From assembly GCF_000191065.1 (NCBI RefSeq), contig NZ_GL872282.1:793928-857927 (forward strand): a stretch of 64,000 bases of DNA, read 5' to 3'. This document shows, piece after piece, positions 7,217 to 61,549 of this stretch (within the stretch, counting starts at the first letter, position 1; every line of letters starts with the position of its first letter). The notes under the pieces were generated by a model. The model had not been told where the DNA came from and searched no databases. It saw only the letters and a list, made by a program, of their open reading frames with translations. The position numbers were made by a program, and so were the translations under genes. This DNA is from Prevotella multiformis DSM 16608. GTDB lineage: Bacteria > Bacteroidota > Bacteroidia > Bacteroidales > Bacteroidaceae.

Positions 7217-7821
7217 TGGACTTCCCTGCGCTGCGTGGATGCTTTTCGTATAGCCTTGACGGATGAACCAAGGTGATTCATTCAACAAAGACATAGCCGG
7301 GACTGGCAGCGATCCATTCTGTGATCCTCCGCTGATACAAAGACCTTTTCATTTTAATACGTGAAAAAGACAGATAAGATTTTGAAAAAGCATTACATGA
7401 TTTCAAACAAATCATCTGCAAATATAAAAGGAACGTGTAAAAAGCAGGACTGTAACCAGCAGTCTATCAAATGGTTATTAATCCGTTCGTAAAAGATGAC
7501 TGATTGGCCTCCAAAAGGGCGTTGGCAACACCTCAAAAGAGCACCTGTTGCAAGCCAATCAGGCATCTTTCAGGAGCTAAAAGAGCATGTGTCAGCTTTG
7601 AACCGCATAAAAATTTTTACAAACACCGGTGGTAAGGGAATAAATTGTTTGTAGAAGATGGAAAGACAGGCTGATGGATGGACATTGTGTCAATTTACTT
7701 TTTCTGCATTTTTTCCTGTAGTCCATCCTCCTTTGTACGACCATCCGTTTTCGGAGAGTCATGCTATGCAAGTGCACAAGCCCTTTATTCTATCCCCGCC
7801 TATCCATTTAACGGAAGAACC
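7217..7821 (+). mobile_element. repeat element, copy A (about 605 bp, non-coding)
   Basis: First of three copies in this window (others at 26006-26597 and 49896-50502). The right end, rc GGTTCTTCCGTTAAATG, matches the ends of the other copies exactly; the left end (from about 7217, GGACTTCC then GCGTGGATGCTTTTCGTATAG) is the most decayed of all. Internal landmarks shared by all copies are GATGCTTTTCGTATAG near the left end, CTGCAAATATAAAA with ACGTGTAAAA in the middle, then three AAAAGRGC motifs inside an inverted repeat (CTGATTGGC at 7500-7508 with GCCAATCAG at 7554-7562). No transposase is encoded. Left boundary uncertain by some bases. Confidence 0.75.
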
Positions 7822-26005: not shown

Positions 26006-26597
26006 GGGTCTTCCGTTCAATGCGCGGATGCTTTTCGTATAGCTTTGACGGGAGAACCGGCGTGGGTCGTTCAACGAAAACATAGCGAGGCTGTCAACTG
26101 CCTGTTCTGTCATCATCCTCCGATGCAAAGACCTTTTCAATTTAATATGTCGGGAATACAGACAGGATTTTGAAAAACCATTACACCGTTTCGGACAGAT
26201 CATCTGCGAAAATGAAAAACACGTGTAAAAAGCAGGTTCGTAACCAGCAGTCAGTCAATGGGTTATTGAGCCGTTCGGAAAAGGTGCCTGATTGGACTTC
26301 AAAAGGGCGTTGGTAACGGCTCAAAAGAGCACCGGTTGCAAGTCAATCAGGCATCTTTTAGAAGCTAAAAGAGCATGTGCCAGCTTTGGACTGCATAAAA
26401 ATGTTTACAAACGCCATTGGATGTCTGTAAAAGACGGAAAGACATGCTGATGGACAGACATCGTATCAATCTGCCTTTTCTGCATTTTATCCTGTAGTCT
26501 ATCTTCCTTTGTAAGGCCATCTGACCTTGGATAATCCCACCCTGCAAGCGCATGAGCCTTTATTCCATTTCCCATCTGCGCATTTAACGGAAGAACC
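26006..26597 (+). mobile_element. repeat element, copy B (592 bp, non-coding)
   Basis: Best-defined copy. The left end starts GGGTCTTCCGTTCAATGCGC then GGATG; the right end, read on the minus strand, is GGTTCTTCCGTTAAATGCGC then AGATG. The two ends pair over 24 positions with three mismatches. The left end also carries a sub-terminal inverted copy (TTTGACGGGAGAACC at about 26044-26058), so it can fold on itself. Inside are the shared landmarks ACAGATCATCTGC, ACACGTGTAAAA, three AAAAGRGC motifs, and the inverted repeat GCCTGATTG (26286-26294) with CAATCAGGC (26344-26352). No transposase. Its right end lies 5 bp from a terminator hairpin. No clear target-site duplication. Confidence 0.85.
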
Positions 26598-49895: not shown

Positions 49896-50502
49896 GGTTT
49901 TTCCGGTCAATGCGTAGATGGGAAACAGAAGAAAGGCTTCTACGCTTGCAGGGCATGGCCGTCCAGAATCAGATGGGGTCTTGCAAAGGGGGATGAGCTA
50001 CAAGGTAAGATGCAGGAAAGGCAGATTGATACGATGCCGGTCCATCGGCAGGCCTTTCCGTCTTCTACAGACAGCTTATTCCCATACCGCCGGTATTTGT
50101 AAACTGTTTTCATGCAGTGCAAAGCAGCACACGCCCTTCTGGCTTCTGAAAGATGCCTGACTGACCTGCAGAAGGTGCTCTTTCAGCGTGTTGCCAACGC
50201 CCTTTTGAAGTCCAATCAGGCACCTTTCAGAAATGAATTGATAACCAGTTGATTGACTGTCGGTTACAAACCTTCCTTTTGCACGTTTTTTTTATATTTG
50301 CAGATGATCTGTTTGGAATTATGTAATGGTTTTTCAAAACCCTGTCTGTATTCCCGACAGATTAAACTGAAAAGGTTTTTGTATCAAAGGATGATGACAG
50401 AACAGGCAGTTGACAGCCTTGGCTATGTTTTCGTTGAATGAATTACTCCGGTACTTCCGTTGAAGCCATACGGAAAGCATCCGCGCATTTAACCGAAGAA
50501 CC
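49896..50502 (-). mobile_element. repeat element, copy C (607 bp, non-coding)
   Basis: Third copy, in reverse orientation to A and B. The ends are GGTTTTTCCGGTCAATGCG (49896) and, on the minus strand from 50502, GGTTCTTCGGTTAAATGCGC then GGATG. The sub-terminal inverted copy at the second end reads CAACGGAAGTACC on the minus strand, giving a hairpin of about 15 bp. Internal landmarks include AAAAGGGCGTTGGCAAC and the inverted repeat near 50151-50169 and 50207-50225. It fits exactly between two terminators: 3 bp from the one to its left and 3 bp from the one to its right. No transposase and no clear target duplication. Confidence 0.85.
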
Positions 50503-60957: not shown

Positions 60958-61549
60958 ATGAAAAAAATCAGAACGGCCATTCCCGACAGTCTAAATACCT
61001 AATAATGGGGATGCCGGTTGCGGCCGGTCGTGTGCCTGCGGGCAGACTGCGTTTCAGACCGTGTGCGGAAGCCTGCCGGCCGTCCTGGCCACTTCGTTCC
61101 CTTCCATTTTATATCAGTCTGTCTCACAGAAGGTTGCAGACTGCAATCGAACAGGTGCTTACTTGCACTGCAACTAACGCCTGATTGAACCCTGGGTAAG
61201 CCTTGGTTGCAATGCAGTTGACGGCCGTTTGTCAGGTGAGTGGTTATCTGCAATAGGCCATTCTATCCAGACAGGAAAAATCAATCACGAAAGATGCCTG
61301 AGTAAGGCAAAGAAACCATATGAAAATACAGATGTTCCCTAGTCTGTGAGAATGATAAATGGCGTTTATCCGGAAAGCAAAGGAAATCCGTACCTCTCTG
61401 TCGCTCTTTTGTGCCGCCGGCACTGCCGTGACGGTTTTCCTCTGTTTTCTCCGTGTGCCTTGTTATGGGCGGGCTTGCTTTTTCACTCTCTGTTTCGGAA
61501 GAAACAGGTGGAATCCTCCGGGAGACCTTCCGCCACATGGAGAAAACAG

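Follow-up and report, generated by a model that had tools for sequence, protein, structure and literature searches.

What are the three sequences of about 600 bp that recur without a transposase gene in a 64,000-nt stretch of the Prevotella multiformis DSM 16608 genome (contig NZ_GL872282.1, positions 793,928 to 857,927; hereafter the window), and how did they come to be there? We conclude that they are very probably copies of a high-copy non-autonomous DNA transposon, a long MITE, which was moved in trans by a DDE transposase of the ISL3 family and which would most simply have acquired its interior module by capture. The MITE part of this reading is well supported, and the interest lies in the function of the repeat array that the interior carries. 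The three copies, and the ends of copy B, lie as follows.

7217..7821, + strand: element copy A, matching positions 3-605 of a 605-position profile, with a decayed left end.
26006..26597, + strand: element copy B, full length (592 bp), profile match 1-605/605, 620 bits.
49896..50502, - strand: element copy C, full length, profile match 1-605, 639 bits.
26006..26029, + strand: left terminal inverted repeat (TIR) of copy B, the same terminal sequence as the ends of Prevotellaceae ISL3-type insertion sequences (IS).
26574..26597, - strand: right TIR of copy B, read in the sequence and by a search with the 19-bp end.
26044..26058, - strand: subterminal inverted copy of the end, within the left end of copy B, read in the sequence.

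Copies A, B, and C are homologous over their whole length in an end-to-end alignment, as a sequence-only reading of the window had claimed, and the profile, which was built from 33 copies including these three, agrees with the alignment and scores them at 616-639 bits. The description of the ends in that reading was also confirmed: B and C carry an inverted terminal repeat at both ends, in A the right repeat is kept and the left one is decayed, and a second, inverted copy of the end is present about 50 bp in at the left end (consensus positions ~40-53). The right end of the IS in Leyella and P. pectinovora contains a near-match to this subterminal inverted copy. No transposase gene was found in the element consensus, as had been noted for the copies, and its longest stop-free stretch is 63 codons in any frame. 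A coding interior was rejected on this limit of 63 codons and on a variability without a steady third-position pattern, and a known RNA was rejected on 0 Rfam matches above the gathering score in the window and five loci. The GC content of the 33-copy set is 41%, and that of the window is 58.7%.

Three copies in 64 kb had been taken to imply many in the genome, and the family indeed comprises 83 copies, 57 of them with both ends, in the 3.06-Mb genome (~1 copy per 37 kb; 25 contigs in the assembly). With copy B as the query, at least 40 places were found in its own genome, itself included (best 40 of 111 candidates scored); the other matches show 78-82% identity and are nearly all full length, together with shorter ones. 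R1, a covariance model for the 96 nt at the centre of the element, finds 85 places above 50 bits, comprising the 83 element copies and two array matches without transposon ends (L139 and L142). Both ends are present in 57 of the 83 copies, the left end alone in 16, the right end alone in 7, and neither in 2, and one further copy is interrupted by other insertion sequences; for the 85 R1 places, the counts are 57 with both ends, 23 with one, and 5 with neither. L138, L140, and L141 form a more diverged group within the 83. The similarity might have stopped inside the proposed ends in most copies, which the earlier reading had named as speaking against a mobile element, and it extends to both ends in 57/83. 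With up to 3 mismatches, the 19-bp end occurs at 152 sites in the genome and its reversed control at 1, which excludes chance as the source of the ends. The mean identity among the copies of this genome is 82%, their divergence from the consensus is ~11%, and closely related copy groups exist among them. Changes from A/T to G/C (2016 sites vs 1167 in reverse) are in excess, as expected for A/T-rich DNA settling in a G/C-rich host.

Some further observations were made in this genome. One element copy (L033/L099, C1:457354 onward) is interrupted by another insertion sequence with ends GAGGGTGTGTCAAAATGCAAAT, which itself holds ISL3 remnants with ends GGTTCTTCCGTTTTTCRGGTTGATAAG. A solo copy of the 19-bp end (C1:753183-753201) begins 27 bp ahead of the complete copy L129, with a further AAAAGAT alongside; this might reflect the loss of an earlier insertion or a nested event. 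Locus L146 (C1:181040-185140) contains at least 17 direct repeats at a spacing of ~72 bp, beyond a frame that is Cas2-like by eye, and these repeats are probably a CRISPR array.

The ends of the element lead to a family of transposases. An exact search with the 19-bp end in named genomes returned 24 stretches, 23 of which are in Prevotella, Hallella, Leyella, Segatella, and Hoylesella, and 1 in a Deltaproteobacteria MAG. Hallella multisaccharivorax has three elements of 1306-1309 bp between these ends (L049, 1309 bp; L054, 1306 bp; and L051), and the transposase frame is uninterrupted in two of the three and interrupted in L051. The 401-aa protein of L049 matches PF01610 (8.9e-69) and NF033550 (2.2e-91), indicating an ISL3 transposase. 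L051 has the exact 8-bp duplication GACTAATA, and no target duplication was found at L049 and L054. Pieces of this transposase also adjoin the end at P. jejuni, P. histicola, P. pallens, P. pectinovora, Leyella, and Hoylesella loci. The element and the ~1.3-kb ISL3-family IS of Prevotellaceae agree in their terminal ~24 bp. The right end of the Leyella IS aligns with the element left end over ~52 bp (9-bp and 1-bp gaps) with a score of 70, against a maximum of 50 and a mean of 34 for 300 versions shuffled beyond base 24, and the right end of the P. pectinovora IS, which matches likewise, scores 66; past ~24 bp, the likeness of the P. jejuni (48) and Hallella (38) right ends is inside the shuffled range. 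Because the Leyella alignment pairs TTTAACGTGAAGA with the element's TTTAACGGAAGAACC, inner inverted copy included, the left-end hairpin probably came from such an IS and was then sharpened.

PF01610 has 4 matches at 3 places in the P. multiformis genome, and no ISL3 transposase was found between these ends (within 1.5 kb) in this assembly. The one match close to an end is a remnant that sits inside an element copy, and its own ends share only the first 12 bp. The partner transposase is missing from this assembly, or was lost. An autonomous copy with a transposase between the same ends, which the sequence-only reading had suggested looking for, is thus present in Hallella (L049 and L054) and was not found in the genome itself. 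Because its ends are common with an ISL3-family IS, we classify the element as non-autonomous and ISL3-type. Duplication of an 8-bp A/T-rich target is a property of the ISL3 family, and the element has both this duplication and ends shared with an ISL3 transposase gene. Two related structures were seen elsewhere: a 62-bp palindrome in Segatella copri (L052, 1341-1402) that resembles only the element left end with its inner inverted copy and is perhaps a minimal mobile unit, and a 638-bp ISL3-type IS derivative in P. histicola (L070, 7125-7762) with both ends, apparently deleted internally.

The two flanks of the same copy have a mean identity of 0.618 over 8 bp, compared to 0.337 for mixed pairs, and length 8 is the highest among 4-13. 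The flanks match at 7-8 of the 8 bases in 18/57 copies, where 1000 shuffles give 0.81 on average and never more than 5, and at 3 or fewer in 14/57 copies, B and C among them. The window copies have no clear target duplication (A 4/8, B 1/8, C 1/8); the duplication is visible only across the genome-wide copy set. Its positions 2-7 are 73-94% A/T, within the 58.7% GC of the window. Recombination between copies was rejected as a general cause of lost duplications: the swapped-flank test gave 1 left-right match at 7+/8 vs 5 in the control, and no reciprocal pairs among the mismatched copies.

An empty site also supports insertion. Copy L125 has TTTTTTAT on each side. In the relative G496 (91% over 325 bp across the junction), TTTTTTAT occurs once and the element is absent, and in the relative G519 (84%, reaching 5 bp past the junction), TTTTTTAT likewise occurs once, uninterrupted, without the element; the match of G494 ends before the junction. 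Four sites were queried for the empty sites that had been proposed as a check, and this one gave a clean answer, the others being rearranged (L129), one-sided (L025), or obscured by repetitive matches (L021).

By a simple ORF rule applied per flank, the nearest called ORF lies at a median of 171 and 142 bp from the 57 full copies, and some genes may be interrupted since an ORF reaches within 2 bp of an end in 12/57. The same rule gives 18 convergent, 28 tandem, and 11 divergent gene contexts. Flanks that are T-rich going into the element have a mean hairpin energy of -10.5 vs -6.4 kcal/mol for base-shuffled sequences (43 flanks), and A-rich flanks have -6.0 vs -4.7 kcal/mol (38 flanks); such hairpins and T-runs would fit insertion at terminator-like sites. 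In both G496 and G436, the gene to the left of copy A (by eye an Mrp-type ATPase) and the one to its right are found on separate contigs, and the element is absent from both stretches fetched from G496. Copy A gives no readable empty site because its flanking genes are on different contigs in G496. It is the one copy with independent support for recombination and may lie at a rearrangement junction, in line with its missing duplication, which suggests from one case only that the family may take part in genome rearrangement.

The element is also found in other genomes. R1 matches in 23/298 genomes of the family, 21 of them of the same genus (P. multiformis itself included). The full-length query, with 40 candidates scored per genome and some matches partial, gave at least 47 matches in G170, 53 in G196, 50 in G320, 50 in G358, 40 in G413, and 56 in P. 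jejuni (G259, which has the same contig coordinates as G121), and no match in G301 and G387. Among the matches listed in six other Prevotella genomes, identities are 68-82%. Fetched loci with both ends have lengths of 564-652 bp, and outside P. multiformis 8/22 distinct two-ended loci have 8/8 duplications (L182, L183, L185, L187, L190, L192, L197, and L201). Five main-type rows from P. jejuni reduce to three distinct copies (L050 = L072, L059 = L080), which are 93-95% alike and appear to nest among the P. multiformis copies in the FastTree topology. Passage between species is likely, as judged from these sequences. No record in the plasmid and phage collections searched has the element, and carriage by a plasmid or phage was rejected on this result.

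The earlier reading had also called the element more structured than usual, and its interior proves to be a second repeat module, which is found alone elsewhere too. Its positions in the window copies are given below.

26172..26411, + strand: array module of copy B, ~240 bp, with limits from consensus offsets -107 to ~+132, not base by base; its parts are outer anchors, TTTGTAACC, the array, and TTTACAAA.
26279..26388, + strand: array of five 22-bp units in copy B, with unit borders by reading; R1 108 bits.
7384..7623, + strand: array module of copy A, with limits from consensus offsets.
50096..50335, - strand: array module of copy C, with limits from consensus offsets.

The five units begin AAAAGGGC-like by reading, and the conserved centre coincides with the array start. 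Relative to this start, the element consensus has GAAA-N5-TTACA at -107 and again at +117, TTTGTAACC at -42, GGTTA at -18, and TTTACAAA at +125. Because these anchors sit at fixed offsets matching those of the arrays found alone, consensus positions ~168-406 have the whole module layout. The interior can be aligned across 20 copies from eight other genomes, a set in which three main-type P. jejuni rows are left out of the conservation mean. Conservation in 11-bp windows is 0.86-0.90 for the left end and hairpin (1-55), 0.89 at 89-99, 0.87 and 0.94 within 166-187, 0.86 at 232-242, 0.98 and 0.90 within 287-308, 0.90 at 353-363, 0.85 at 397-407, 0.85 at 496-506, and 0.84 and 0.88 for the right end; positions 452-484 are largely without conservation. 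Several of the conserved interior blocks, not all, coincide with the module. Such conservation of the interior is unexpected if only the ends matter.

R2, a sequence model of the ~240-bp array module, finds 133 separate places in P. histicola; ends were examined in 20 (L243-L262, chosen from a match list, not at random), and none has transposon ends. Five consecutive units at 22-bp spacing are present in 18/20 of these loci and four in 2/20, with L244 and L259 seemingly read in the opposite orientation. The P. histicola consensus has a GAAA-like motif followed by TTTACA, with TTTACA/CTTACA at -100 ±1 in 15/20, TTTGTAAC at -42 (exact in 9/20), GTTACA at -17 (exact in 7/20), and TTTACA/CTTACA at +124 ±1 in 15/20, and the sequence between the anchors is variable. 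In G301, G387, and P. multiformis (G000), 150/150 scored candidates for R2 pass E 0.001; these passes are not locus numbers, and both strands of one array may count twice. Among 25 other loci, R2 matches in P. jejuni, Leyella, and G496, and in Segatella maculosa at 12 bits; it has no match in four Hallella loci, an S. copri locus, and the Deltaproteobacteria locus. The unit sequence varies by species, being AAAAGGGCATCTTTTACAATGC-like in P. histicola and more G/C-rich in P. multiformis, where the standalone loci are diverged. One lies in the window.

61108..61249, + strand: array-module match outside the element copies, diverged, 29.7 bits; the only such match in the window.

Further standalone modules of P. 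histicola were seen at L078, L081, L084, L087, L089, and L091, the last with short repeated CATCCTAG-like motifs upstream of the array.

Four alternative readings were weighed. In the first, the array would be a functional site of the host, such as a set of binding sites for a nucleoid or regulatory protein; copies would be kept for the sites that they provide, and the transposon would be the vehicle that spreads them. We take this seriously and yet judge it somewhat less probable than its negation. The array core is more conserved than the ends: in 31 copies of this genome and 2 from P. jejuni, positions 286-315 have the lowest internal variability (0.026 and 0.038, against a mean of 0.113 and against 0.065-0.081 in the first 30 bp), and across the 20 copies of the eight other genomes conservation in the array peaks at 0.98 in an 11-bp window, compared to 0.87-0.90 for the left end. 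The 133 P. histicola places, the many matches in G301 and G387 where the full-element query gave none, and the anchors fixed at -100 and +124 in 15/20 P. histicola loci each also favor a site with its own role, and a period of 22 bp is close to two turns of DNA. However, we know of no binding protein or phenotype for the array, variability is lower still in the final 5 bp of the right end (0.019), and blocks outside the module are well conserved too (12-55, 89-99, and 496-506). The ~11% divergence of the P. multiformis copies with its AT-to-GC excess fits largely drifting DNA, and conservation within the family may partly reflect recent common descent.

A second alternative, which we consider rather unlikely, is that the array hairpin ends transcription in both directions or stabilises RNA, which would let insertions close to the ends of genes be tolerated or make them useful. 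The core has an A-run, a long stem, and a T-run, and its fold z is -5.3 in B (96-nt core), -3.9 in A, and -6.5 in C, with -9.4 and -11.1 in two P. histicola arrays. Unit 1 can pair with unit 4 to form an outer stem, in which 97.1% of cells are paired and 8/16 pairs change on both sides among 26 distinct sequences (elements and standalone arrays; the rows of alignments A5 and A6, 27 and 24, were hand-picked). The stem covariation score is 0.343, compared to 0.171 shuffled and at most 0.111 slid, and slid pairing reaches at most 61.1%. The hairpins that precede T-rich flanks entering the element (-10.5 vs -6.4) point the same way. On the other hand, the gene contexts are not mainly convergent (18/57), and folding is weaker at other loci (z -4.3 and -2.4 for two standalone loci of P. 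multiformis, -2.2 for a G003 copy, and -2.7 for the opposite strand of a G358 copy). Within the 31 copies of P. multiformis, none of the pairs differs on both sides, which places the covariation between lineages, and inverted duplication of units could give the same pairing pattern as RNA constraint. The flanking anchors would also be superfluous for a terminator.

It is improbable that the standalone arrays are merely decayed old copies of the element, with no independent module. The array is the best-conserved internal part and could outlast the ends, and the standalone loci of P. multiformis are diverged, as decay would have it; yet 0/20 P. histicola loci have a TIR-like sequence (up to 2 mismatches in 14) within 600 bp, 18/20 of them keep five regular units, and G301 and G387 have many array matches with zero full-element matches. 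A repeat that is inherited vertically and does not move, or an artefact of assembly, to which the old divergence (82% mean identity) and the 25-contig assembly might point, can be practically dismissed, being contradicted by the empty site, the target duplications, the closely related copy groups, and the same elements in genomes of 2-3 contigs.

We therefore return to the non-autonomous MITE-like element that the sequence-only reading had proposed, which is upheld by the common ends, the 8-bp duplications, the empty site, and the transposase-bearing relative in Hallella. Copy number, occurrence in several species, the likeness of the module, and the ends held in common with a transposase-bearing IS are likewise observed directly. 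Transposition in trans is well supported by the sequence evidence; movement by the transposase of this particular IS, the order of capture, and any function of the module are what we infer beyond it. An ISL3-family DDE transposase would recognise the ~24-bp inverted ends and act in trans. Insertion would occur into A/T-rich 8-bp targets, duplicating the 8 bp, often by a hairpin followed by a T-run, that is, a terminator-like site. The ends would derive from the ~1.3-kb Prevotellaceae ISL3-type IS, with the left end of the element corresponding to the right end of the IS, and capture would be the simplest explanation for the ~240-bp module with its five 22-bp repeats.

High-copy MITEs are known, and an interior that matches a separate, regular, multi-copy module is unusual. 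A module inside a MITE suggests either a host functional site captured by a transposon or selfish use. We put forward, as a speculation that is more doubtful than probable, that the array represents an undescribed class of genome-wide functional site in Prevotella, used by a species-matched protein or through its own RNA in organising or insulating parts of the chromosome or in terminating transcription, and that an ISL3-type MITE has captured one and spreads it. The 83 natural insertions, together with the many standalone arrays elsewhere, offer material for finding out which partners the array binds or what it does, and naming the likely partner transposase makes mobility directly testable.

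In the literature searched, which was mainly open-access with ISfinder outside its scope, neither the element family nor the array is described. REP sequences, which are associated with RAYT transposases, are palindromic and high-copy, with a unit sequence that differs between species, and the standalone arrays resemble them in all three respects. Unlike REP sequences, they have a ~240-bp architecture with five 22-bp units, and the P. multiformis genome has no Y1_Tnp. A REP/RAYT system was rejected, with 0 matches to PF01797 in this genome and a positive control in 5/14 genomes. ERIC sequences (30 to 711 copies) and Correia elements (over 120 copies), as given in PMC10969869, are likewise high-copy short intergenic bacterial repeats. 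They belong to other organisms, whereas here an IS with the same ends has been identified and an internal array module is present.

BrickBuilt of Porphyromonas gingivalis is, like the present element, a Bacteroidales MITE with an internal tandem repeat (23 bp in BrickBuilt, 22 bp here). According to PMC4596501, it is intergenic, with a leader and a tail around its 23-bp repeat, and has 19 copies in ATCC 33277, 4 of them with both ends; its duplications differ in length, and its TIRs resemble those of the IS5-family ISPg1 and ISPg9. The same paper reports no matches of the repeat outside P. gingivalis and element homologues in P. gulae. On this description, membership in BrickBuilt was rejected (TIR GGTTCTTCCGTTAAATG here vs GAGACCTTTGCA-like, and a unit of 22 bp vs 23 bp); the present element differs in having ISL3-type ends, 8-bp duplications, and 83 copies, and its array is also found alone. 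Compared to the ISL3-family IS (DDE_Tnp_ISL3, transpos_ISL3; ~1.3 kb in Hallella), pieces of which also occur in Prevotella, Leyella, and Hoylesella loci, the element lacks the transposase gene and has about half the length and another interior, and the terminal ~24 bp of the two are the same.
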